Shown in pieces: positions 9,224-64,000 of a DNA stretch of 64,000 nucleotides. A program made the translations under genes and the position numbers. The DNA is from Amphiura filiformis. Its lineage: Eukaryota > Echinodermata > Ophiuroidea > Amphilepidida > Amphiuridae. Location: assembly GCF_039555335.1 (NCBI RefSeq), contig NC_092646.1, positions 27,147,780 to 27,211,779 of the forward strand, read 5' to 3'. Each line of letters starts with the position of its first letter. The stretch's first letter is position 1. A model generated the notes under the pieces. That model was not told the DNA's origin. It did no database searches and saw only the letters and a list, made by a program, of their open reading frames with translations.

Positions 9224-10746
9224 GGGCTATTTGATATTCTAGTTGAAACCCATACAGTGTGGGCCAAAAACAACTTTACCCAATTTAAAAGGTCCATATC
9301 TCGAAATTGAAAAGTCTGCTTCAAATTGTTTTCACATGTTCGTAAACAACATTTTCTTAGGAGTATTTGGTGAAAAACTATCCAAAAATGTATTAAATTT
9401 AAAACGTGATGCTAGTTTTAAATGAAAGGGTCAAAATTAACTTTGTCCACGCGAAGACCTACAAGCTGTCGCGTCGCATCATTTGCAATAGCGAGTTCGA
9501 TAGAGAATGAGAACCACTCACTATACGCACAAATTTCTGAAATTTGTTCAGCGGTTTTATATAACACAATAATATAAATCAAACATAAACAATTTAAATG
9601 TCAAGCTATGATATTTCCTCATGATATGCATCTTTCTTGCTGCAAAGATATAAAAACAATTCTCTTCAAATATACGCAAAGCAATTGTAACCTCATACCT
9701 CATTTTTGTCATTTTTTGTCAAATGTTATCTACAAGAAAGTTATTGCACTTATTGCGTTCGTGGTATGTTGGGTAAATTGTTGCTTTGACAACTGACTCT
9801 GGGGTAGTGGGTTAGCTGCAAGTTCCTTTGTACCGCTGCAATATTTGCAGCTGAACGGCCAGTTCATGGACGTCCGCTCCGTGCTTTGCATCTATTAGTC
9901 ACACTTCCGAGGTTGTGAAAGTTGTTCGTAAGTAGAGTTATGGGAGGTCTTGGCAAGACTCCTACGTCTGGGAAACGAATCCGACATTGATGCTGCACTT
10001 CCAAAAAGCATTATGTTCTTAAGTATACCTCTACCATAAAGGTCCTCTCTTGTGTTGTGAATTGCCTTATCTTGACACCTTGCAAACCTATTTAGAAATA
10101 AGCCACGCGGTCACAAAATGCATGAAGACCTATTTAAAATTAAAAAAATGTGCCAGATGAAACCTTTGTAATTGTATAATTATTACGCTTATTGTTGGTC
10201 AATGACAGGAGTGAAGTTTGAGTATATGACAAGTAAATGGGGATTAAAATCGATTGTATTTCTTTCATGTATGTAAAACAATCATCACTTTTCAAAGACA
10301 GGCCAAACCTGTTTACTAATTACATGTATGCCTAACGCATATGTATGCCTTACTCTTAGCAATCAGACAAATCCCATTGAATTACGTGTGGACAAAGTGA
10401 TTTTTAACCCTCGGACGTAAAACTAGCACCATTTTGTTAATTTAGCTCCTTTTGCTTTCATTTCTTCATCACATACTTTTAGAAAGATATACATTTAGAA
10501 TTTGTAACAATATCATGATCAGCTCTTCTACAATTCGAGCAACCACCCTCTGAAATTGGGTAAAGTTGTTTTTGGCCCACACTGTACACCCCTATGGAAT
10601 ACATGACCTTAATCTCTCCCACAGGGTGTGTAGATTTTAAATGGAGTCACCCATTCATGCAACTCCATTTGAAATTCACATTCCCTGGGTGGAAGATTAA
10701 GGAAATATCTTCCATAAGGGTGTATGGATTTCATCTGGAATAGCCC
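9224..10746. mobile_element. Family C fold-back MITE split by a Tc1/mariner-type insertion
   Basis: The left piece (9224-9254) begins gggctatttgatattctagt. The right piece (10585-10746) resumes at tacacccctatggaatacat and ends in tggaatagccc, the inverse of the start. The junction is the TA that flanks the inserted element at 9255-10584. Joined pieces match other family C copies, for example 33160-33315. Confidence 0.8.
9255..10584. mobile_element. Tc1/mariner-type DNA transposon, 1.33 kb, decayed
   Basis: The terminal inverted repeats are about 32 bp: cagtgtgggccaaaaacaac on the left and gttgtttttggcccacactg on the right. The element is flanked by TA on both sides (9253-9254 and 10585-10586), the target duplication expected for Tc1/mariner elements. 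Its length suits a full-size member, but no open frame longer than about 60 codons survives on either strand and I see no transposase motif. It is either dead or non-autonomous. Confidence 0.8.
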
Positions 10747-16912: not shown

Positions 16913-17241
16913 AACAGAGAGTTCATCCAGGAGAAGAAAGACCATATAAATGTGATATATGTGGTAAATGCTCCAATCATAAGAGCAGTCTCATTAGTCA
17001 TATACGGATACATGATAAGTCATCTCAATACATGAGCATTCATCCAGGAGAAGAAAGACCATATAAATGTGATATATGTGGTAAATGCTCCAATCATAAG
17101 GGCAGTCTCATTAGTCATATACGGATACATGATAAGTCATCTCAACGACGGGTGACTGCTAGTAGTATTAATTACCTACTTTCCGAAAATGATATTTATA
17201 CACCTGTATGCACTTGGGCGAGTTTGGCGTGTCTTCATTAG
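16913..17241 (+). pseudogene. C2H2 zinc-finger fragment, two tandem fingers (117-bp duplication)
   Basis: Two finger units follow one another in frame. Each reads HPGEERPYKCDICGKCSNHK, then x-SLISHIRIH (C-x2-C-x12-H-x3-H), with unit starts at 16921 and 17038. The 117-bp copies differ at very few bases, so the duplication is recent. Upstream, ccactgttacag could be a splice acceptor. Downstream of 17150 the frame runs on to 17241 without further fingers. A third partial copy of the same unit lies at 18868, where a deletion removes the CDIC cysteines. It could be a live exon of a zinc-finger gene, but its isolation and the broken neighbours favour a fragment. Confidence 0.55.
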
Positions 17242-20150: not shown

Positions 20151-20392
20151 AGCCCCAGTCATGGTGGGCAAAAGTCTTCTATCCGTTTTTACAGCTTGAG
20201 ACCAGTAGAATCACTTGAGTCTCATCCATTCAGTGGGATTCAAGTCACTGAAAATCACTTTTCAAACACTTAGACTTGTGACAATAAATCCCCAAACAGC
20301 TCCTTATTTACACCCAGGTGGAATGAGGTAAACTAGAAAAAAAGGTACTGACCATCTATGCCATCTATCTATGCTCTATCTATGCTCTAAAC

Positions 20393-20548
20393 GGGCTATT
20401 CCAGTTGAAATCCATACACCCCCAATGGAAGACATGACCTTACTCTCCCACACAGGGGAGTACAAATATTAAATGGATTCACCCACTTAGGTAACCTGAT
20501 TTGAAATTCACACTCCCTGTGTGGGAGATTAAGATCATGTCTCTCATG
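20393..20548. repeat. Fold-back MITE, family C copy
   Basis: It begins gggctattccagttgaaatc, then catacacccccaatggaaga and atgaccttactctcccacac. It contains the inverse half gtgtgggagattaagatcat, but the far end is replaced by unrelated sequence, so the copy is truncated on the right. Confidence 0.85.
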
Positions 20549-24027: not shown

Positions 24028-27000
24028 CTGGAAATGGGAAAGGAAACAATATGGTTGATTACAATTACATGTTAGATTTTGTACATAAACCTAGGGGTAC
24101 TCAAGTTTGGTTTGGGTGTGCCACTGAGAATTTAAAAGTGGACCCATCAATATACAAGTTTTTATAGAAATTTGGACCCATCGGCCATCGTTATACCAAA
24201 ATTCCAAATTTTGGGCCAAATTTAACACAAATTGTCTAAATTTTACCCCAAATTTGAGAAATTTAAAACGTTTTGGTTTCAGTGAGGCAAAATTGGGCTA
24301 TTTTTCAAAAACATCAAAAATATCGCCCAAACCTGCACACTCACATCACATCTTTGGGGTGTTTATAATCTTAACCTGCCGATCTAACATTGCCTTTAAT
24401 TGGTCAATTAAATGATATCTTCACTTTAATCACCAATCAGAATGGAGCTTTGAAAATAATTCACCCCAATTTTTTTGTGTGGTGAAATTATTCTAACAAT
24501 GTTGCTGATTGGTCTAATTGATAATGAAAACTTCTTTTTGACCAATCGGCAGGTAGTTCTCACGGGGTTATACTTACCTCATGATGTTTCCATAGTGATC
24601 TTCTGTGTGAGACTGTGAACAGAGTGATTCCCACCTGATGAAAAAAAACATTGAAACAATTTGAAATAGATTTGTATGTAGCATAGGAATACACATTTGA
24701 ATGTGTAATCATCATGTTCTGAAAGATTTGATTACCTCCACCCCCTCAAATAACTGAAAAGTATGCTGAGGCTTGCGGATCAACGTCTAGGATCTGTTTG
24801 TAGCACACTATAAATCACTGCATTTTTTTATTAAATATAAAGTAAAACAGGCTTATACAAGATGCTTTGTACCCAAAATCATAGCAATTTCACTCAAACT
24901 TGAACTATTTTGTTATTTATTTATCTTAATTTAAATCATTTATTGTTTATTTTATTTATTTATTCTCTTTTTGAGCAACAAGAAAGAAGAGGGACAGATT
25001 GAAGCCTTAAGGGTTAGATTATTTTGCTAAAAAACTTTGAAACTAGAAAGCAAATTTATACTTCTACGCTACTCAAATTTGGTACACTCACCAGAGCGCT
25101 TTCACCGGGTCAACCGGCGTCTTCAGCAGATGTTATTGCTCTGAAGATTGTTGTTGCTAGTGATGTAGTACTAGGACACCTCCGATGACGCCACAGATGT
25201 TGATGACGCCAAACTTGAAGATGTTGTGCCGCCCCTTGGTTCCGGGGGTCAGGAGGTTGTCCCAGACAGGGTCGATGTCCAACCCTTTGTCACGGTTCAG
25301 TCTGGGTCTTTTAGTTCTAATATGGATTGCTTCCAAGACCCTGCGAGGGAAGTCCTTGGACTCCCTTTCTAACACTTTTAACAACAATCTTCAGAGCAAT
25401 AATATCACTGAAGACGCTGGTTGACCCGTTGAAAGCGCTCCGGTGAGTGTACCAAATTTGAGTAGCGAGAAGTATAAATTTGCTTTCTATTTACGTTAAT
25501 ACGTATGAATATACATCATTATAACTTTGAAACTATTTAAATCAGATCTTACCTCTCTTGCATGTGAATAGATATATCCCTCCACATCCACACTAACCGC
25601 ACTAGTGCATTCATCCAAGATGGCAAACTGAGGCTTGTGATAAAACAGTCGAGACATCTACAAAAAATTTATACACATCAAAATAAATATGAACAGAGAT
25701 GAGGGACAATGGGCTCTTGCATTTAAAATCCACACTACTCTTGTAGAAGACTTTGGAAATATCTTCCACAGGGGGAGTATGAATTTCAAATGGTACAAAC
25801 ACATTAGACAGCTCCATTTGAAATTCACCCTCCATCAGTGGAAGATTCAGGTTGAATCTTTTTCAGAGGGTATATGAAATTCAAACAGAACTGTCTAATG
25901 TGCTAATTGTATTGGAATTCATACTCCCCCTGTAGTACATATTTCCAAAATCTTCCACAGGGTAGTGTGGATTGAATAGTACTCACTATTCAATAAGTTG
26001 TGTATAGATTTCATTTTAACTTATTTTCTAGATGGTATAATAAACATTCAACTACAGTCTGTCCACTTAGAAGTATAAACCAAATCTGTGGCATCGGGGG
26101 TCGATGCTTTGCGTCACACGCGAGCGCGACGCAACGCGTAAAGAGCGTAGTGCACAAATCGCGCAGCAGTTGGCGCGCCATAGAAGCATTACACTGAATT
26201 ATTATTCTCATTCCTCCAGTTTCCGAGGTCTATTTACTTTGTACTTCTAGGTGGACAGACTATAGTCTGGAACACATGTGCTGTTCAAGCCTTGTATGGG
26301 CACACATGACCAAAAAACCTTTATATATAATGCAATCAATGTGTCATATGGCACTAACTCCCACCTTCTGTGCAATCTCAGCAATGTCAAGATATTTTCA
26401 AGAAAGAAGTAATACAACACTTTTTGAAGCAATATCTACTAAGAATGAGTGTGCAATCTATGTTTTTAATTACCTGTAATCAGGCTGGACCCGATGTTTG
26501 ATTTCAATTTATCTAATTATTCAAACTTTGTAGGTAACGGTATCAGTATTTCTAATATTGTATGTTTTTTGCTTGCTGAATAGTTGATATAATATAATGT
26601 TTAGTGCAATCTTTCTTGTATCTTAGACTGAAGTAAGTATTCTTTTCTGTGTTTCTTAATCCTTGGCTTGAAACCTAAATAAAATGAAACAAAATTCATA
26701 CAAGATGCATTGGAGATGACTTCAACCCCCAACTGCTGGTCGACTCCTGGCAGAGAGAATGTGCAGTTTAAACCTATTCAATTGTTCCGAATAATAGAAA
26801 CCAGGCCCAATTGCCAGTTCTGCCAATGCGTCTGCGGTCCACCAATAGTTGGGTTCTGAAGCCATCTCTTAATCAATACACATATTTAATGTAAATCCTG
26901 TGTCGTGCCCCCAAAATAAATCAATAGTCAAAATTAAACTGTCAGTTGACCAAACATCCCATGCGCTACTTACAGCTACTCGTTGTTTCTCTCCTCCACT

Positions 27001-30000
27001 GAGTACATCCATCCAATCTTGAACTGAATCCCAACCTCCCTCTCTCTCCAGGATATTAGCTAGTTGCACCTGCAAAACAAACAGTCATCATTTCCAAAGC
27101 TGAATTATTACTCAATTGATTATACAGAAATGCTCTTTGTTTTCTTCTCTTTTCAGAGCGTCAGGCCGATCAATCGAGCATACTAAACATCACCAGGGTT
27201 CGAACCCGTAACTTCACACACCATAGTCGAACGCCTTATCTATTGAGCTAACTTGACTGCCTGATTAGTATACAGATGCCATAAATAAACTAGATGGACC
27301 GCGGTTCTCGGATGTCGCGGTTTTCGACGCACAGCGTCGACCGTGATGCCTCCACCAAAGGGAGCGATGTGGCACTCAACAGTTGATACAAAGCAGTTTT
27401 TATCAATTTGACCTCAGATAATCTCTGGGTGACCCTGGATGACCCCAAAATGACCTTCCAAATATTTGGCTCTAAATGTTGACTGTACCCACCAAGTTTC
27501 ATGCACGTATGACAGTTTTTACTAATTTGACCTCAGATGACCCCTGGATGACCCCAATATGACCTCCCAAAAATTTGGCTCTAAATGTTGACTGTACCCA
27601 CCAAGTTTCATGCCCATATGCTAGTTTTTACTAATTTGACCTCAGATGACCCCTGGATGACCTCAAAATGACCTTCAAAAATTTCGCTCTAAATGTTGAC
27701 TGTACCCACCAAGTTTCATGCCCATACGACAGATTTTACTAATTTGACCTCGGGTGACCCCAGATGACCCCAAAATGACCTTCCAAAAATTTGGCTCTAA
27801 ATGTTGATTGTATGTACCAAGTATCATGGCCATACAACAGTTTTTGCTCATTTGACCTCAGATGACCCCTGGGTGACCTCAGGTGACCTTGACCCACTAA
27901 CCAATACAAACTCGTTCTGCCTGGGGTCAAGATGCACCCACCCACCAAGTTTGAGGAACGTGCGACCCCTAGTCTCTGAGAAAAGAGGTAAATAAGGAAA
28001 ATGGGCCCCCTGACCTCAAATGACCTTTAACCTCAGTATATGACCTTGAACCTCACCCAAAAAAAAGTAGCCAGAGTTTTTGACCATGACCCACCTATCC
28101 TGAAAATCTGAAGTCAATCCGCCCATGCATGCCCGAGATATAGCGTCCGGACGGAAGCACGGAAGCTCGGAAGCACGGAAGGACAGAAGGACGGAAGGAC
28201 GGAAGCACGGACATTGCAAAAACAGTATGCCTCGCGGTGGAGGCATAAAAATAAATATATAAATTTCAATTTGATAAAGTTTCACCTACCTTTGCCATGG
28301 AATCTTCCAGATCCTTATCGGTGATGCCTTTTCTTAACATGTCCTCTTTGTTGTCAGGATAGATGATTTGATCCCGTAGGGTCCCTAGTGTCATGTATGG
28401 TCTCTATAGCAACAATAATGATATCAACAGAAAATGACAGTATGTTTTTGATGACTTATATGTGACATGATCAAGGGGAATGAGTCATATGTCGGCAATT
28501 TTCAATCAGAAATCTTTTACATCAATTTCTGTCAGTTTACAAATGCTACATCTTGATGCAAACCCCATCAAAATTGGACATCTGGTTACCGAATCATGAG
28601 CAATCGATCAATGGCTGAAAACAATATAAAACAAAAGAATTTGAACACTGTTTTTGCCAATATCTCAAAAACAATATTAGCAGCATCCGACTCATTCCCC
28701 TTGTTCATCTCACATATGTGACTATCCTCCACACCTGAGCCCGAATGTCGCCAGTGCCACTATTGAGATATGCTCCATTGAACTTAAAGGGCATTTCGTG
28801 ATCCACAGCCTCATCCCCCACTTTTCCCAAAAAAAAGTTGAGATTTTTACACCACTGGATACCTCTGGCTACATAATGTTTATGTACCAAATATTTCTTG
28901 CAGATTAATTCGTTTAGCAAAAATATTGCCAAATTTGAATTTTGTTCTGGCGAAATTACAACACATTGTCTATGGAGCAGTGTAATACACATAATCATGC
29001 ATAACTCGCAAACGCAAAATCGGAATTAACTGAAATTTTGGAAATAAGCTTTTTTCGTGGATATCTACTGAAAAATGTCATAAAAAGAGGATGCTAGGAT
29101 CACGAAATCCTCCTTTAACAATAAACAATAGGAAACAAAGGATTTATTGACTGTTTTATTGATTTTTCACTACTTAAATGTCAAGTACTATAGACATGAT
29201 ATACATCATTTTAAAGCTAATTTCAAGCAGAATATTTTGGTTGAATATCTCAAAAATGATGATTGGCGACTTCAGGGCTCAGTTGTGCTGGATGGTCACA
29301 TATTATGTATGGTCTTTAATTGTCTACAAAGCTATACTGTCAATTTGTCAGTGTTTAGAGCTTTACTGAGCTTAGTGCACTCAATTCAAAAATTTTGTTA
29401 ACATACATGTCAACAACAAAATATATGTATCAACAACAGGCCTATACTGAGGTCAGCTGGAAAGACAAAATATTTTTACTGACTGAAGGTATTAAAAGGG
29501 CATTTCGTGATCCACAGCCTCATCCCCCCACTTTTCTCAAAAAAAGTTGAGATTTTTATACCACTGGAAACTATATGTACATGTTTATGTACAAAAACTT
29601 TCTTACAGATTAATTCATTTAGCAAAAATATTGTCAAATTTGAATTACGTTCTGGTACACCAGAATGAAATTACAACATTGACCATGGAGCAGTATAATA
29701 CACATAACCATGCGTAAATCTCAAACGCAAAATCGAAATCGATTGAAATTTTGGGAATAAGCTTTTTTCGTTGATATCTACTGAAAAATGTTATAAAAAG
29801 AGGATGCTAAGGATCACAAAATACTCCTTTACAGTATAATTCATTAATGTTTTAAGCTTTCATAGATACATACCTGGGGTACATAGAAGAGTTTCTTGGC
29901 TTGTGGTTTGGTAACCTTGCCTCCAAATAATGGCCACAACTGTGTAGACAACAAAGACAGGTTATCTCATTCATCAATTAAACACCAAATCTTACAATGT

Positions 30001-33000: not shown

Positions 33001-36000
33001 GAATGTCTATGACAAACAAAACAACATTCCAATCACAACTAAAATATACAAAAAACATCATAGTTATACATGGTCTGCTTATACAAATTTAAAACATTCA
33101 AATCCCCTAATGAGGAAAGGTGGTGGTCAACATTGAACATCATAAAGTGTAGTTTTTCTTATTGAAGACATGTCCTTAATCTCCCATACAGGGGGTATAG
33201 ATAGCAAATGGAGCCACCCATTCAGGCAACCACATTTGAAATTCACACTCCCTGTGTGGAAGATTACGATCATGTCTTCCATAGGGGGTGTATGGATTTT
33301 AACTGGAAAAACCCACTGGTGTTGTCTTGTGCATGCCATTTTACTAATTGCTCACATAAGGACTATGGAAAAAATCATAAAACCTTGTATGTGTCATTGG
33401 CCCCTGAACATGTTTAAAGCAAAACCTCCTATGCAACCTGTTGGCAGTTTTGTTTTAAACATGTTCAGGAGCCTGAAGCACATAAGGGTTTTTCCTGCCC
33501 AACGACAATATACATCTGACGACAATAATTTCTAGAAAACCCAACTGTTTAAGATATGATAGACTGGAATTCTATTGACTGACCAACCCACCCAAGGAAA
33601 GTGGTCGACAAGCAACCAATCTCATTTTTTTTTGGGGGGGGGGGGGCTGATTGTCATTCACTGGATAGGAAAGGTTAAGGTCAGGGATCAGGTTTATGGT
33701 CACTTTGGTCAGGTCATGATTTGGGGTAGTTAATTTGGTAAAAGCAATTAGTAATATTAGGCCATTTAGGTTGCAGTTAGTTTTGATTCAAAGTAACTGA
33801 CACAATATATATAAATTATGTAAACTGATGTAACATTCTTATCTGACTACTGTAAAACTGGAAATTTTCGTATGTGTAATTTTTCACGCTTTGCCGATTT
33901 TGAACTACATTGCTTGTTTTTAATTTTGTGATTTTGAGTTTTCTTACATAGACCTATACAATAAAAGAACATATTTGTGTGTTTTTATTTTCGCAGTAGC
34001 TGTGTTCTGTGCGAAAAGTGAGAAAATTAAATACCCTGGAAATTTCCACTTTTACAGTAGCAGACAGGTACTTTTGGATAGTTCCCCACCATTGACTCAT
34101 TGCACGGTATTGCAATGTTTTCTCATAGCAAATGCAGAAATTAAAGCATGTACACTGAAGGTATACAAACAAACAACATGCACTTTGCAAGTACATGTAT
34201 GTAGGTCATGGTTGCATGTATGCATCCAATGTGATGCAATCACCCTAAGTCATACACACACGGTTTTGTTGGCCGAGCCAGCGCAACACCCGTGGCTGCA
34301 TTTCGCTTATGGAGTGCTTAGCATGCGAGGGGTCTTGCGATTCAAAACCTAGGGAAACTCCAACTTTTTTGTTCATCTTCTCTCCTTTTTTGTTCCTTCT
34401 TTCCTCTCCGATAGCCAAAAGCCACTTCGAGCATTAGGGTTAATCCTCACGGTCCTCACCCATGCACAGTGATTTTGCTTTGTAAGATTTTACCAGATTT
34501 ATTGAGTTAATGTTAATGTTAGATCAATTTAGGGTGAGGTTAAAAGTTGGACAATACTTGGGTAAACTATTAGTTACAGTTAGGTCTGTTTGATGTAAAG
34601 ATTAGGGTTACAGTTATATTTAGGATTGGCTTATAAGTTTATAGTGTGTCGAAATATGGGTTACAGCTTCTTCAGTATTTTTAATTTTTTGTAACAATTG
34701 GTTGAAGCCAGGCATATTATTAGTGCTCAGAGGCTACTAAATTAAAGGGATGCTAACTTAATATGACTTTACAGGGATAGGGGAAGAGGTCTGATCATAA
34801 AACCAGAGCATCCAGATATAAACTATAGGAGGACATGCATGGATCGGAAACCACACTGACATGTGGCAACTGGGTGAATTGAACCCCGCCTGCAGTGGTG
34901 AGAAGCGAGTGAGACAACCACTACAACAACCCTTCCTCCATATGATCAAGTGTTAGAGATACAGCTCCATTTAGCATTAACATTAATAAGGATTAATGAA
35001 GCATACAATACTAGGGTAGCATTATAAGAATTAGTGTAACAGTTATAGCTGGTGTTAGGGTTAAGATAAGAATTACAATTTATGGCTAAGCTAGGTCACA
35101 GTTCATCAAAAGAAATTAAAAATGACAAAGTGCTTTCATATAAAATTGACCTCGTAAAAATATTCACCTGGACTCAGGTTTTTGAGATGCTATGGTATCG
35201 CACCTTATCCTATGTGCATCTTCAGGCCGACTGTTGGTCTGGCGGCAGGTCATTGACCTATGACAAGATGGCGTTGCTAGAGGTCATCGATTTTGAGTCC
35301 AACTACTAAGGTATGTTTTTTTTAATTACAACTAGGATAAGGGGTAGATTTCACTAAACTTTATGAAGCTTTGCAAGTCTTAAAATCATTCATAACTTAC
35401 AACGACTTCCATTTCACTAAACTTACTTATGAACAGTACCCTTTGTAAGTGGGGATTTACTACAGGGACCCTTCATAAAGCTACATCTAGTATTGGGTAT
35501 TAGTAACTTTACGAACAGATACTTGAGTTACAAAAGGGTTAAAAGTTTAGGGAAATGGATCCCAGGTGCGATACCAAGCTTCTCAAAAGAGTCCAGTTGA
35601 ATAGTTTTAGAGGTTCAATTTTATATTTAATTATACCAGGATGAATGACAACCTTCATAAATATATAAAGTGCTTTTATGTTGCATTCTTCAAATGAATT
35701 AGCGCATCAGGGTTAACATTATAACCAATATTGTCGCTATAGGATTTAATGCAAAGGGTACAATAAAATCATTCAGCCAAATTAAAAGAAAATATATTCA
35801 TGTGCTAAGTACATAACATTGTTGGGCAGGAAAAACCTCCTATGTGCTTGTGGCTCCTAAACATGTTTAAAACAAAACTGCCAACAATTTACATAGGAGG
35901 TTTTGCTTCAAGCATGTTCAGGGGCCAATGACACATAGGAGGTTTTTCCTGCCGAACGACGATAAGTGAAAACTATGGCAATACATTCAACAACTACGGT

Positions 36001-39000: not shown

Positions 39001-42000
39001 AGATATATGTAACATAACTCCTATAAAAGGTGCAAAGAAAACAAACAACATTTAGCCCAAAACAAGCGTTGTTATGGTAACATACCAGAATGAGTCAAGA
39101 TACCCAGGGGGTGCCACATTAATTGATTAATGGAATGGAGTCACTTACCCTGCAAGCCTGGTGAGTTCGCGACCTGCTAGTGCTACACGACCTGTGGCTT
39201 GCCCCATACGCACCATCATGTAGCCTGATCTATAGTAATTCTATGTGACAAAATAAGTAGGGGATAATGGGATGGAGTGCGTGTCAATACTAAAGTTTGT
39301 TCGGCTTATAATTGGTGAAAATTACTTTGTTTTTGCTAACTGCGTGTCAATTCACATAAGCGTGCGCCAGCAATGCGCAACTAGCGTAAGTGCTGCGCCC
39401 AACTGCCATTCTATATCAATACACAATGTTATGAGTCTCATTTTTTCGCCAATTATAAGCCGAACAAACTTTAGGTAATGGTTAAATGGTAATTTGGGTA
39501 GTGTAAGTGCACCGTAAAAGAATTTTTGTAAGATTAACTTTTCCTGCTTTTCCAATTTTGATTTGTTCCTCTTGTTGTTAAATTTCACAATTCTAAGTTT
39601 CATTTCATTAACGTATACAAAAAAGAAATATATTTGCGCATTGTTATTTTCACGTTAGCATCTTGGGACGTGATGAGCGCAAAAAATAATAAATTTCCCC
39701 TTTCGCATTAACCCCATTTGAAAACCACACTCCCTATGTGAAAGAATAAAGTTGTGTCTTCCACAGGGGGTGTAGGGATTTCAACTGGAATAGCCCAATT
39801 GGTTAATACTCAACAGTGCAGCAGAGTTATACTGATTTTTAAGAGTAAACTGACTCAACTCCAATTGTGACCGTCCATGAGGAACCTAGACCCAGTCCAC
39901 ACCAGCATATTTTTGTCATCGTGGCGTAATTACACGATTATGATAAATGAATGATGAGAACGTCCACACGGTCAGCACCTCTTCATTGTGTTGTAATACA
40001 TTCTGGTTATACACACACCACGGCAATTACGAAGTCCATTGAGTAAACATAAATAAAATGACTAAATGCGTAATTTTCATCGGCAATTATGACACGATCC
40101 TGCTACAAAACACCCAATGATGGAAATTTTCATCATTCGCGAATGATGACACGATTGAATTATGCTGACGACATTGAATTGACACACGATAACAATATCA
40201 TAATACGATTATGACACAATCATAATTGATGGGAAAAAATACAGTCGTGTGGACCGGGTCCTAGTCTAAAGTCACAATTTCGAGTATCTTAGATTATCAA
40301 ACAGTTGAAATCTAAGCTTTAAAAATGATATGTTACTTGCCATAACTTCTTGGGAAATAGGTGTTGAAAAATCAATTTTGATCTTGAAATTCCTTTGTTT
40401 CCTATTGATTTTCCTATTGCTTTTTGGCTCAGCTGGTGACTTTACACTAGGTTTGAGGTGGATTCTGGAAAATAGGAACACTATTTTGGAATGTATTGCC
40501 CTGCACTAGAAGGTACACTGTTCCTCTGCATTTTACCACAGATTATCAATGAATAGGGATAGCGACTTGGATCGTAATTCTATAGAAATTTTACATTGTG
40601 CTGTGATTTTGTGTATGAGTCACCCGCACCTGTATTAGTGTCTTTGAAAAGAGTGGTATATTTGCACACATATTATACAGGTTATAAGAGCAAAATGCTT
40701 TTAGTGTAGACCTATCATGGTAATTAATCCTGTTACATCACTAGTGAATTGCAATACATCCAAAAGGATGAGGTGACAACATGACAGATAATAAAGTCCC
40801 TTTAAGAATCCAGATGAGAATGTTATTTTCAAAATAAACTTATAACTACCGGGTGTCCCAAAAAAAGGTTACATGTAGATTTTTGAAAATAATCTAAGTT
40901 AATGTTAACAAATATAAATATCCTCTTCATAACATAATCTATGTACCCTCTACTAGTACTCCTGTGAATGTCAAGTTCACAACCTATGTACTTAGCCCGC
41001 ATTCCAGGCATTCCTGACTAAGCTGTTTACGTGACATAATGCAACACAAGGTTCATATACCACCGTCACAGCCACCGTGCATTTGGCGGGGCACTTGAGT
41101 AAGCCCAGCCATAGCATGGCAGATGCAGAACTTTATTCTGATAAACAAAGAATAAAACTTGTCCAGTTTTATTTCAAGAGTTCAGTCAGAAATGTAAAAA
41201 CAAATAGCAGCGATTTCAAGTGAACAAAATCCAAGCATGGCCTAAATGCAAAATATTGTTAATATTCAGAACTGCTTTCACCAAAAACGTGTTATTCGCT
41301 AATGACATCTTCCTTTATTTGTTACCACCTCTAAAACTGATTTATTTTCAGTGCAGTGTACAATATTTAATTTTTTCAATATGTTTCTTTTGTGCAATAA
41401 GTTCAACAATGAAAAATAAGAGAAACATAAAAAGTAATAAAGAAAAATCTGAAAACAAAGTTGTGGTTGTGTTCAACTTTTGTTATGCGATATTTTGATG
41501 GTTAGCCACTCTCGACACCCCTGTCATCTTGCGCTCATAAGTTAAGTTGCTTTTAAGATAAGGATTTGAAACTTAGTAAACAGTTACAAGAAGGATGAAT
41601 AAATAATATCTGAAAAAATGACATTGTTTTGTTGTAGCGTCACAAAATGCGATCATTTTCTACATGTAACCTTTTTATGGGACACCTTGTATTACTCCTA
41701 AAACTGTAAGTTGCTATTATTTTCTTTCAAACACCACAACCAAATACAAAATGTGTTTACAGTCCATCTCTCTCCGCACACCTCACACCAACCTAAACAC
41801 ACATGTATGCAAACACAAACACCTATTTATCCCCCAACAACCCACATGAGTTTGCTGTCAGACAAGGACCACACACTCAATTATCTAAATTCACAGTGTG
41901 CCTTGGCATTCATCAACATACAAGGACATTTTCCACCATTTGTTGTGCTTAATATTTTAGTAAATGCAAATAACACGTGATAGTATAGGGCAAGCATGGA

Positions 42001-51000: not shown

Positions 51001-54000
51001 TGAGTTACTAAAGATTAAATGTTTAGTGAAATGGACCACTGATCTACTTCTTTAAACCTTGCAAAAGCATCTTACCTGAGATATTGATCATACAGTGCTT
51101 TGGTGAGTCTAGTTCGAAACCGTAATTTCATCTCATTCAATCCATACTGCAATAAAACACATTCGATAGCATTAAAATTGAATAGATTAATTTCGAATTG
51201 CGTTATCTTACATTTGCTTTCAGAAAAAAATAGTACTCTCTTGCACAGATTGATGCATGTACCCTGTTAAGGCCAAAAAAAGTTGCGTTACCCTCTGCGC
51301 CTGGGTCAAAATCCCGAAAATCCAAGCCTGTTTCTTTTTTAATAACCAAAATAAAACCTCTTATATAATTTTTTTAACACATGATTCTTTCATCATACCC
51401 CCATGTCTAGTCCCGGATCCCTTACGTTCGCCAAAAAGATTGTGCCCCAAGCCAGCACTCTAATTGGATAGTAGATAGTAAAATTAGCAGGCACTTAACT
51501 TGGAATAGCTAGAACCCTGGTAGGATTGACTCATTAAATCCCAACAACATCTCTTTTCATGGATGTTAATATTGTTTACTTCAATAAAATATTCAACATA
51601 ATGATCCCTCCTTAACAACAGCAGAGACTTACCTTCAAAAGATTATTTACAAGTGAGATCTGAAAAGTAAAAAAAACAAGAAACATTGAGTAATTTTAAG
51701 CACTATCAATTTGTCTTCAGGGAACGGCTCTTTTCAGGGCCACCAAATCTTGTACACTCTTGTTCTCTGCTGACAAGGGGCAGTCTTCAATGAATGGCTC
51801 TTTTCAGAGTCATCAGTAGGCAAATCTGATTGTTAGGTACTTTGTCCTGAAGAAGTCAGAGCTACATGTTGTACTCCTGATGAAAGCTTCATAGTTCCAA
51901 ACTTGTCCAATGGCCAACTCGCTGAAAACATGCTAATTGTTATGAACTGCTGTCGTAATAGCCTATCCCACAATTTCAACAGTGAAGTCACACAATCCAT
52001 CTTTTCTATTTTCTTCTTTCACAACTTACTAAATTCAAGTTAAAATTGCAACTTATGCACGCCATTTTAGATCAGAAAAAACACGTTATGTTCTTTATCA
52101 ATGGATTAGGCTAAAAAAGGTTGCCCCAGAGTGGAAAAAACCCTCCCCAGAGCTAGAGGAATTAAAAAAATGCCAATGGAAAATGTGCAATTCATTTTTC
52201 GTTACTGTTTTTGGCAATTTTTCCCACATTTTTTTACCTAAAAATACAACTATATTCTGGGTACGGTTAACATTTTTAAAAAATAACTTCAAAATTTAAG
52301 AAAAAAGAAAGAAAATGTCCCAAAATGGCAAATTTTAATTGATATGGGAAGTGCATGATCTTCTGAAACAACCCCCCTTATTTGACATAATTATAATTAC
52401 AGAACATGAAAACATGTGTGCATACCCTTTGTGGAAGACATGACCTTAATCTCCCACATAGTGAGTGCAGATTTCAAATGGTAATCCCATTTGAAATTCA
52501 GTCCCTGGGTGGAAGATTAAGGTCATGTCTTCCATAAAGGGGTAAATGGATTTCAAATGGAACAGCCCATTATGCATATGAAGTCCATGTCTCAATTAAA
52601 ACTTACCGCAGGCATCGCCAAGACGTAGTTCAACAGAAACTTCCTAAATCTGTTGACATCACGTCCTATGATTGCACTGTAAAAAATATAAGGGAGAACA
52701 TGAATGAGCAATAACAAGTCATCGTTGGGCAGGAAAACCTCCTATGTATATACTTGTGGCTTTAGAACATGTTTAAAACAAAGCTGCCAAGAGGCTACAT
52801 ACATATGTAGGTGGTTTTGCTTTAAGGGGACTCGATCTTTTGTGCGTAATTATAGAGGGCCAGGGGATTCACTCTATTATTAAAAAAATTATTTGAAGGA
52901 GTCAAAGAGCCCTAGGAATAAAAACTGTAGTGTAATTCACGCCAGATACAATTTCTTTATACGACAAAAATTAATTTTTGTAATCGATCAAAAACAAACG
53001 TTTTATATCAATTTTAAATTTAGCCTGAATCCGTAAATATGGTACCTCTCGCCTTTTTTAGGTCAAGGCTATTTTTACCATTATGCAGCGAACCATTGTT
53101 GAAGCTATTTCACATACATGTACAAAACATTCTAGAGAAAGATTGAGGACATATAGTGTTGAAATATCTTTTGTTGATTTCGAATGATAATGTCATGAAG
53201 TCGTAAATTTTAAGGTCAAATTCCTAAAACCAAAACAAATCATTGCGACGCAGATAATTCCCGACTTACGCAATTTCATCATCACATCAGTGTCTTTATT
53301 ATTTGTTTGAAACCTTTCCCAAACGTTAAGTGCTATTTATGCATAAAACGGCTAATATATCTTTACAAAATGCGTCTTTTTTAGTAAACAAAAGGCTAAA
53401 GATGGCATTATGAGATTTATCTTTTATCATTACACTCATCCGCTCAACTGCCACGGTGGCCGAGCGGTAAAGCGCTAGACGCTGTAATGTATTCAGGTAT
53501 CTCACCGTCTGAAGATATTGTAAAATGTTATAGCGCCCTCATATCCCTTGATTAATAAATCACTTGAATCAAAATGGCGTGATCGAGTCATCGTTGATCT
53601 CACATGGTGTCAGAAAAAGGGCACGAAAACGAACCGTAAACATGGACAAAATAGATCCACCAAAAGGTTTACGCCTCGACGGAAACCCAGCGGATAATCT
53701 GAAATGGTTTATTCAACGTTTCGACCTATTTATGCTAGCAACAGGCAAGGTAAATAAACCTGATAATCAGCAAACAGCCATGTTCTTAACACTCATTGGC
53801 GAAGACGCATTACGCGTATACAACACCTTCAAATGGGACAATCCCGATGATAAAGATAAACTAGTCAAAGTAAAGGAAAAGTTCACAGAACACTGTAAAA
53901 GCCACACCTCACAAGCATACGTTAGAAACAAGTTTTTAGCAGAGACCAGAAGGATGGTGAGAAAATCGATCACTATGTAACTGAACTGAAAATCTTGGCA

Positions 54001-57000: not shown

Positions 57001-60000
57001 AAGTAAACAAGACCCATATCTCACACTACTTGAGTATAGAAACACACCCATAGATGGTAATCTTGGTTCACCTAGTCAGTTGCTAATGAGCAGAAGGACA
57101 AAAACTACCATACCAGTCAATCCAAAGTTGTTGGAACCAAAGGTGGAGCCAAATGCAAAATACCAGTTGCAAAACAGACAACAAAATCAAAAAGACTACT
57201 ATGACAGAACCACCTCTCTTTTACCAGAATTGAGAGTGGGTGACACCGTAAGAGTTCAACAACAAAATGGTACGTGGCAGCCAGCTGTTGTGACTCAAAA
57301 ATCTCCTGAACCCAGATCTTTCATAGTGAAAACCCCTACAGGTGATTTGAGAAGGAACCGCAAACATCTGATGAAAACAAATGAAAAAGCTCCCTGCTTA
57401 GATCCACCTGATTTGAACCAAGAAAACCAAACTACAGGTGCAGGTCAAGAAGATGACACCAGTAAAGAAGCACAAAATGTACAAGATACACAGTCATCTC
57501 CACAGGTTATAAAAACCAGAAGTGGGCGTGTAGTAAAGCCGCCACCTAGGTACATGTATGAAGATGAAAAGTAAACAGACATGGCACCAAGTATGGAAAT
57601 GGACCAATAACATGTAAAATAGTGAACATGTACATTGTAAGGTTACATGTATTTGAAGTTATAGTTAGAAAAGTTTGTTGATCAAACTAGCGTAGATAGT
57701 GTTGGACTTATAAGTTGGAGTTTTTTAAACCAGAGTTAAGTGACAATTCCAAGAAAAAAGAAAGTTGGCATTAATTTCAACAAGGTCAACTTGGGCACAA
57801 ACTCTGCTAAGTTCTAGTTATTGTTAGTAAGTACATGAAAATGAGCAAGTGAAATTACATGAAACAACAACAAAAAGAGACTGTAACACCAAGATATGTG
57901 CATTGTTGTGTGAAACACTTTATTGATCATCATAACAATTGAGTTACATTGTGAACACAAGAACAATTATTGTATCTTTATGCTTAAGGAGGAGGATGTA
58001 ATGTATTCAGGTATCTCACCGTCTGAAGATATTGTAAAATGTTATAGCGCCCTCATATCCCTTGATTAATAAATCACTTGAATCAAAATGGTGTGATCGA
58101 GTCATCGTTGATCTCACAGACGCGTAATCGAAGGAAGTTTAGAATCGCTGGTTCGAGTCCCAACGAAGCCTGTGGAAACTTTTTTTGCTTCAAAATTCAT
58201 GATCGCATTCCGAAATGAGCCACTTGGCGGTAAATCATGTATCGTATCCTTAAACATGTTCAGGGGCCAATGACACATAGGTTTTCCCAACAACAAAGTG
58301 TTTTTCATTAAATTCAATTTTCCACAATGGGCTATTCCATTTAAAATCCACACTACCCCTGTGAGTGTGAGGGTGTTAGAATATATTGTCCACAGGGGGA
58401 AAATGAATTATAAATGGAATTACAATATTAATCAATTTGAAACTTGCCCTCCCTCTGTGGAAGATCCAGGTTGAATCTTTCTCAGAAGGTGTATGAAATT
58501 CAAATGGAGCTGCCTAATGTGTTAATTCCATATATGCAGGCATGAGACTGCACTTTCCCACCCACCAGTGGTGTACAGCATCTTACCTTTCAATAGCTGT
58601 ACCATTCTGTATCATCCACACATCACAGTATGTCCTAGCTGCCAGAGAAACCCTTGCACCCTCCACCTTGCCCACCCCCACCCAACCAACCACCCCCCCC
58701 CGGAGGGTACAGCATCTTACCTTTCAATAGCTGTACCATTTTGTATCATCCACACATCACAGTATGTCCTAGCTGCCAGAGAAACCCTTGCACCCTCCAC
58801 CTTGCCAATGCCCACCCCACCCAAACAACCACCCACCCACGGTGGTGTACAGCATCTTACCTTTCAATAGCTGTACCATTCTGTATCATCCACACATCAC
58901 AGTATGTTCTAGCTGCCAGAGAAACCCTTGCACCCTCCACCCACTCACCGGTGGTGTACAGCATCTTACCTGTCAATTATCATCCACACATCACAGTATG
59001 TCCTAGCTGCCAGAGAAACGCTTGAACCCTCCACCTTGCCCACCCCCACCCAACCAACCAACCATCCACCCACCAGTGCCACCCACCGGTGGTGTACAGC
59101 ATCTTACCTTTCAATAGCTGTACCATTTTGTATCATCCACACATCACAGTATGTCCTAGCTGCCAGAGAAACCCTTGCACCCTCCACCTTGCCAATGCCC
59201 ACCCCACCCAAACAACCACCCACCCACCGGTGGTGTACAGCATCTTACCTTTCAATAGCTGTACCATTCTGTATCATCCACACATCACAGTATGTTCTAG
59301 CTGCCAGAGAAACCCTTGCACCCTCCACCCACTCACCGGTGGTGTACAGCATCTTACCTGTCAATTATCATCCACACATCACAGTATGTCCTAGCTGCCA
59401 GAGAAACGCTTGAACCCTCCACCTTGCCCACCCCCACCCAACCAACCAACCATCCACCCACCAGTGCCACCCACCGGTGGTGTACAGCATCTTACCTTTC
59501 AATAGCTGTACCATTTTGTATCATCCACACATCACAGTATGTCCTAGCTGCCAGAGAAACCCTTGCACCCTCCACCTTGCCCACCCCACCCACCCACCCA
59601 CCAGTGGTGTACAGCATCTTACCTTTCAATAGCTGTACCATTCTGTATCATCCACACATCACAGTATGTCCTAGCTGCCAGAGAAACCCTTGCACCCTCC
59701 ACCTTGCCCACCCCACCCAACCACCCACCCACCCACCGGTAGTGTACAGCATCTTACCTTTCAATAGCTGTACCATTTTGTATCATCCACACATCACAGT
59801 ATGTTCTAGCTGCCAGAGAAACAGCCACTAACAACATAAACCCAGTCTACAGAAAACAAAGCAAAATATGAGATGTAAAATTTATTTCAATGAAAATGAA
59901 TTGTTTGTGAAAATTTGAAAGATACTGGTCAAAACTGTCCTCAAAGTGGATTCTTGACAGGGTCGGGGATGCGCTGCAAACATGGGTAGCATTTTCGGCC

Positions 60001-63128: not shown

Positions 63129-64000
63129 CTAAAAAGAGTTAAAAATAAGAAACTGTTAAAATCGGCATAACAGGAATGAAGGGATCATAAACTTTAGTTT
63201 TTAGAGTCATGCTAAGAGACTGGACCCAAAGGTCCATGTGCACCATCAGACCAGGTCTTACTTTAGACCTGATCTAACCATGGAGATTAGACTTAGGGAG
63301 AAGGAACTCTTAGGTATTTACATACCATATTCTATACAATTTTAGATCCTGTTAAAGGGACCATTGAAAGAAAATATGATTTGGTACCAAAATAAACCCC
63401 ATAAAATATAGAATCAATATCTAAAACAATTGGAGAACTAACTATTTTAGAAATAAAAATACAACAAAAACAACGTACTCGATTTACCCCCTTCCGACGC
63501 TACATCGCGCGTTGTTTATCAAAAATAGAAAATTGGGCGCTTTCCTGATGACGTCATTGTGGTTACGCGTTTTGTGTTGTGCTATCATTTTTGCCGGGAC
63601 AATTTCAACAGCGATCGCGATCTAAATATCAGATGCAATAATACAACCTCTTATATATTTAAAGGTCAAGCATTAAAAACAAAATACCAGTTGATTGTCC
63701 ACATGTTACCAAAAAGAGGAAGTGGAGGGCCTTTTTATTTATCATTTATTATTTTTTTTACAATGAAAAATGATCATTTATGTATTATTCCCGGACATTA
63801 TTAGTTGTGTAACTTGTAGACATGGTAAAGGAGGATGATAGGATCGAGGCTCTTGTTATTTGATGGTTCTCTGAGAGCATGATTATTGATTAAAACAAAG
63901 CCTGTAAATAGAAATGCTTATTGGACAGAAGCAAATCTAATCAATTGACAATATTATTAACTTTTGAAACATTAAAATAAATGAAGAAGTTTTCGCTTAG
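63129..64000. other. Right flank: ABCD3 intron, no exon found
   Basis: I searched the minus strand for a segment ending in the expected ...VFF + two bases before a donor and saw none. The remaining N-terminal exon(s) should lie beyond 64000. An open frame at 63559-63804 (plus) shows no domain. Confidence 0.45.

Follow-up and report, generated by a model that had tools for sequence, protein, structure and literature searches.

A ten-unit tandem array of an exon end and its splice donor inside a probable ABCD3 gene of Amphiura filiformis, most likely a young minisatellite

How a gene might be spliced when the end of one of its coding exons, complete with its donor, is repeated head to tail within the following intron is the question raised by a locus of the ophiuroid Amphiura filiformis; it lies in a window of 64,000 nucleotides (nt) of contig NC_092646.1 (assembly GCF_039555335.1, forward-strand positions 27,147,780 to 27,211,779), which is the whole stretch analysed here. 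The gene is on the minus strand and is probably ABCD3, as the closest database protein is P0001, the ABCD3-like isoform X1 of A. filiformis. A preliminary description of the window had proposed that an exon end and donor of ABCD3 were amplified into a ten-member array, and this is borne out; between 59821 and 58587, read on the minus strand, ten TTTCTCTGGCAG sites alternate with ten GGTAAGATG donors, and the spliced mapping of P0001 identifies the coding exon from which they derive. The array is considered, with a probability of about 0.8, to be a young intragenic minisatellite that took in an exon/intron boundary and is probably near-silent in splicing.

Residues 64−667 of P0001 match exactly across 21 pieces of the window, of which the first one or two residues may be chance matches at the first piece; each of the 20 joints has a single GT-AG solution that yields the protein. 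Residues 1−63 have no exact match of six or more residues in the window, which ends 867 nt past the P0001 piece at 63133. The second mapped piece is the exon of interest (Table 1); it codes for amino acid (aa) 83 through the first two bases of codon 112, is bounded by acceptor TTTTCTGTAG and donor AAG/GTAAGATG (the slash marking the splice junction), and its last 65 nt are the start of the first array unit. The introns flanking this exon are 3230 and 7081 nt, the latter being the longest of the 20 mapped. In P0001 the first donor is joined to the exon starting at 52676, and the protein is without array residues.

The array comprises ten tandem units of the minus strand, the first beginning at 59822 and the last ending near 58557, which corrects the previously described 3' limit of 58561. 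Each unit consists of the last 65 nt of the exon (50 nt in units 4 and 7), followed by the donor and a G-rich intronic tail, which in units 1−9 is 44−88 nt long when measured from the donor. Downstream of the AG, eight units have 52 nt of exon sequence and two have 37 nt, both 1 mod 3; 13 nt common to the units precede this AG, which accounts for the copied length of 65 nt, or 50 nt in the shortened pair. A minisatellite is a head-to-tail run of near-identical units, each of tens to about 150 nt, and the ten units of 94−153 nt agree with this description. Seven of the nine copies encode the same 21 residues and the other two share an in-frame 15-nt deletion that removes five codons, together with a change of GAA to GAC, so that the intact reading frame attributed to the copies holds in full for seven and with five codons fewer for two. 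Only two other exon-part positions vary, AGA/AGG and CAA/CAG, both synonymous; all four of their combinations are present, a pattern suggestive of exchange among units or of recurrent mutation.

Table 1. Coordinates of the array, its host exon and the adjoining repeat (positions in the window)
Feature	Position	Strand	Remarks
Real ABCD3 coding exon, second mapped piece	59758..59846	-	spliced match to P0001; 89 nt
Unit 1	59688..59822	-	135 nt; end and donor of the real exon plus beginning of the G-rich intron
Unit 2	59561..59687	-	127 nt
Unit 3	59408..59560	-	153 nt; opens duplicated 388-nt block
Unit 4	59314..59407	-	94 nt; donor CAG/GTAAGATG; lacks 15 nt in frame
Unit 5	59173..59313	-	141 nt
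Unit 6	59020..59172	-	153 nt; identical to unit 3
Unit 7	58926..59019	-	94 nt; identical to unit 4
Unit 8	58786..58925	-	140 nt; equals unit 5 minus one G
Unit 9	58652..58785	-	134 nt
Unit 10	58557..58651	-	curtailed; identical to first 95 nt of unit 2
388-nt block, units 3-5	59173..59560	-	repeated as 59172-58786, 387 nt, one 1-nt indel
Dispersed repeat	58324..58531	.	about 26 nt beyond array end; relatives elsewhere in window

The array is not a product of chance resemblance, since only one of the 20 exon ends of the gene, that of the array exon, has a second copy of its end and donor in the window (60-mer, up to 12 mismatches). This end is found at eight ungapped places including itself, and the two shortened copies are additional; the other 19 exon ends have no second 60-mer within 12 mismatches in the window, their nearest matches differing at 22 to 30 positions. 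Outside the array, unit 2 finds in the window matches of 12−20 nt only and the tail of unit 9 matches of 16−22 nt only. The repeat adjoining the array end is one copy of a dispersed family with inverted parts, other members of which lie near 25706-25973, 39714-39807, 33234-33318, 52538-52574, 10620-10655 and 20390-20422.

Splice sites were scored with weight matrices built from the gene's own junctions (19 sites, those of the array exon omitted). The real donor scores 10.90, as do seven of the nine copies, and the remaining two score 10.38, confirming ten near-identical strong donors; among 2175 intronic GTs, array included, nine reach 10.90, of which seven belong to array copies. The score of the real acceptor is 10.17, a value equalled or beaten by 4 of 1795 intronic AGs, and is the sole good acceptor of the array, which agrees with the claim that one true acceptor precedes the first donor. 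The AGs of the copies had been proposed as cryptic acceptors; this is not sustained, as the copy tttctctggcag acceptors score −3.10 (seven copies) or −0.65 (two copies) and 545 of the 1795 intronic AGs score −3.10 or higher. Within the real exon, the same acceptor motif has a score of 1.83. Overlooked previously, an AG that is in frame though very poor (CAAG/) lies 14 nt upstream of each copy site; it scores −15.3 to −19.3, and its tract is 19−25% pyrimidines compared with 62−94% at the 20 real acceptors.

The consequences of splicing into the array were predicted by joining sites in silico. The real acceptor combined with any of donors 2−10 gives a protein ending ...AIER-stop (9/9), and a single copy joined at tttctctggcag ends ...AIES-stop (9/9); of the 511 sets in which copies can be combined by joining at tttctctggcag, none is open, the junction reading AGC TAG. 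A stop also results in 19 of 19 cases tried when a copy replaces the real exon or when that exon is entered at its inner motif. It had been reasoned that extra exons of 52 or 37 nt, both 1 mod 3, would shift the frame when one or two are added and keep it when three are; the lengths are correct, however three copies do not restore the frame as every tttctctggcag set meets the stop. By score, the array differs from a tandem exon duplication, in which every copy preserves the frame and has a functional splice site at both ends, because its tttctctggcag acceptors are weak and lead to a stop in 511/511 sets and its in-frame AG scores below −15. Joining at CAAG/ leaves 511/511 copy sets open and would add repeats of 22 aa, or 17 aa for units 4 and 7; it is nevertheless scarcely credible that the copies serve as small in-frame exons extending a membrane segment in this way, given the scores and pyrimidine content of these AGs and an annotated protein that lacks such repeats. 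The fit to the frame by length alone is a one in three chance.

The array is hypothesized to have originated by tandem duplication of a segment holding the 65-nt exon end, the donor and the start of the G-rich intron, and would have grown by unequal exchange or conversion between units, a mechanism suggested by the pattern of the array; a recent duplication of the 388-nt block may have enlarged it later, provided that the assembly is correct. Through exon definition, the sole high-scoring acceptor nearby would pair with the first donor, its nearest across the exon; the nine later donors would sit within the intron and leave with it. Mis-splicing into the array would mostly meet an immediate stop and at most lower ABCD3 output; we infer both use of the first donor and near-neutrality. 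The later donors are probably passive, by extension from human data; Carranza et al. 2022 (PMC9225289) report that, among near-equal donors between long introns, where exon definition operates, the upstream one is favored, and that it was the only one used in each of five minigenes carrying a pair of identical donors. With introns of 3230 and 7081 nt on either side, these published cross-exon results favor the first donor. The preliminary description had presented the choice of the first of ten donors as a demand on the spliceosome; the choice exists, however it need not be a paradox, as the first donor is the one expected between long introns according to the same study (PMC9225289).

The copies had also been noted to stay coding-like, and this was taken as a signal of recent spread or homogenization. 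Recent spread is supported. However, coding constraint on the copies is not; only three distinct substitutions occur in the exon part, two of them synonymous, and the probability of at least two in three is 0.12 with a synonymous fraction of 0.22, or 0.21 with the fraction of 0.29 that applies to transitions. Variable columns number 3/65 in the exon part (counted by eye) and 3/29 in the intron (p 0.37), the latter from five tail types that represent eight of the ten units, units 8 and 9 being omitted because indels and further differences set their tails apart. The young age of the copies suffices to account for their coding-like appearance. A role for G-quadruplexes was set aside; the strict four-run motif is present on the sense strand in two of the ten units (59734, 59599), and also at two further sense-strand and three plus-strand places in the window.

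That the array acts instead as a splicing brake, with donors 2−10 or poison-exon copies sending some transcripts to stops and copy number tuning ABCD3 as a dial, is regarded as improbable. All nine later donors and all 511 tttctctggcag copy sets do give a stop, which falls at the same codon for single copies and for later donors, and the copy donors about equal the real donor in strength; however, the commoner copy acceptor is matched in score by 545/1795 intronic AGs, exon definition favors the upstream site among equal donors in PMC9225289, and the copies bear no sign of selection (three substitutions, P 0.12 to 0.21). The joint claim that ten U1 binding sites of near-equal strength, in an array of variable length at the start of the longest mapped intron of the gene, are a heritable dial on ABCD3 output, acting by leakage into immediate-stop isoforms or by retention of the U1 small nuclear ribonucleoprotein in the 7-kilobase intron, is slightly less probable still. 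A partial assembly artefact deserves more weight while remaining unlikely; the block of units 3−5 may have been counted twice, giving a true array of about seven units or some other number. The copy number rests on the assembly at this point because units 3−5 are almost identical to units 6−8 (388 versus 387 nt, with a single 1-nt indel and no difference between units 3 and 6 or 4 and 7), and the block reflects either very recent duplication or an unreliable spot in the assembly. Between the other pairs of units 1−9 there are 2 to 10 substitutions plus gaps, which is not the stutter of a single copy, and recent unequal exchange would look alike. Such an artefact can coexist with a young minisatellite, and the odds of the two need not sum to one.

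Several observations weigh against a near-silent minisatellite. Use of donor 2 would give an exon of 224 nt, which is a normal size and makes leakage to this donor plausible; P0001 is named 'isoform X1' and represents a 90%-identity cluster of four sequences, which would conceal any other isoforms. The acceptor model is built on 19 sites of a single gene; when each real acceptor is left out in turn, three of 20 score only −6.93, −2.01 and 0.2, values lower than or close to those of the copies; −6.93 is reached by 898 of the 1795 intronic AGs. A low score therefore does not exclude use, because these three real acceptors score as low; the tracts of the copies are also 56−69% pyrimidines, overlapping the range of the real acceptors. 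The last unit is without a full tail, and the duplication junction is not of the clean textbook type. Before donor strengths are matched, PMC9225289 reports that the downstream donor is preferred in each of the four intron classes; the strength-matched upstream preference is preferred as a guide because the donors of the array are matched.

Other tandem repeats occur in the window and are counted in favor of the minisatellite; these include a 71-nt repeat of about 20 copies at 390-1827, the longest array found by the repeat finder, and a 108-nt repeat of about four copies at 27433-27878, in another ABCD3 intron. There is also a 117-nt tandem duplication at 16922-17145, 99% matching, whose unit resembles zinc-finger coding sequence by eye. 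Elsewhere in the gene, the minus-strand exons 39240-39149 and 38794-38703 are both 92 nt, share a phase and hold different versions of one segment; the former has acceptor and donor scores of 4.85 and 9.43. The pair look mutually exclusive, as both exons together would shift the frame. Isoform X2 of Antedon (P0007) has the RSGYM type of segment, which hints at an old origin of the pair within echinoderms; when proteins were searched for isoforms containing the 39240 exon (RSGYM type), none of 22 candidates had an E-value of 0.001 or better.

By its title, the study of Turri et al. 1995 describes an interferon-induced transcript in which multiple splice donors are supplied by a minisatellite. 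To the extent that this title conveys, the likeness is a minisatellite with multiple donors, here ten scoring 10.38−10.90, the first of which is the donor of the real exon. The transcript is presumably 6-16 (IFI6/G1P3), and its minisatellite reportedly has a unit of about 12 nt with several donors in use. The ABCD3 unit differs in its length of 94−153 nt, of which as many as 65 nt are coding exon, and only the first donor is used in the model protein; in architecture the array is of the same kind, with a far larger unit that includes coding exon. Tandem duplication across an intron/exon boundary is described in a study of the potato RNA-dependent RNA polymerase gene as a source of intron gain, where, as here, local duplication copies a splice boundary and part of an exon (PMC4974935); the ABCD3 array differs in copying the 5' boundary many times. 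The variable number tandem repeat of TERT intron 6, whose copy number alters splicing (PMC3948165), is likewise an intronic repeat. The passages available from PMC3045353 and PMC12783039 concern intronic repeats and mention no copied donor, and those from PMC3045353 predict extra splice sites in a variable intron 1. No other exon end and donor amplified into an intronic array was found in the literature searched, which left most subscription journals outside and makes this a weak negative.

The feature is real, and a young minisatellite with little function at present is its most likely identity. It shows that an exon boundary can be multiplied at presumably little cost while the copies are without good acceptors. 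Ten near-equal donors behind one good acceptor in a native gene also offer a natural experiment on whether donor choice is governed by proximity across the exon or by proximity across the intron, and this test would become quantitative if array length varies between animals; the importance of the array would grow if the later donors prove to be used or if array length tracks ABCD3 output.
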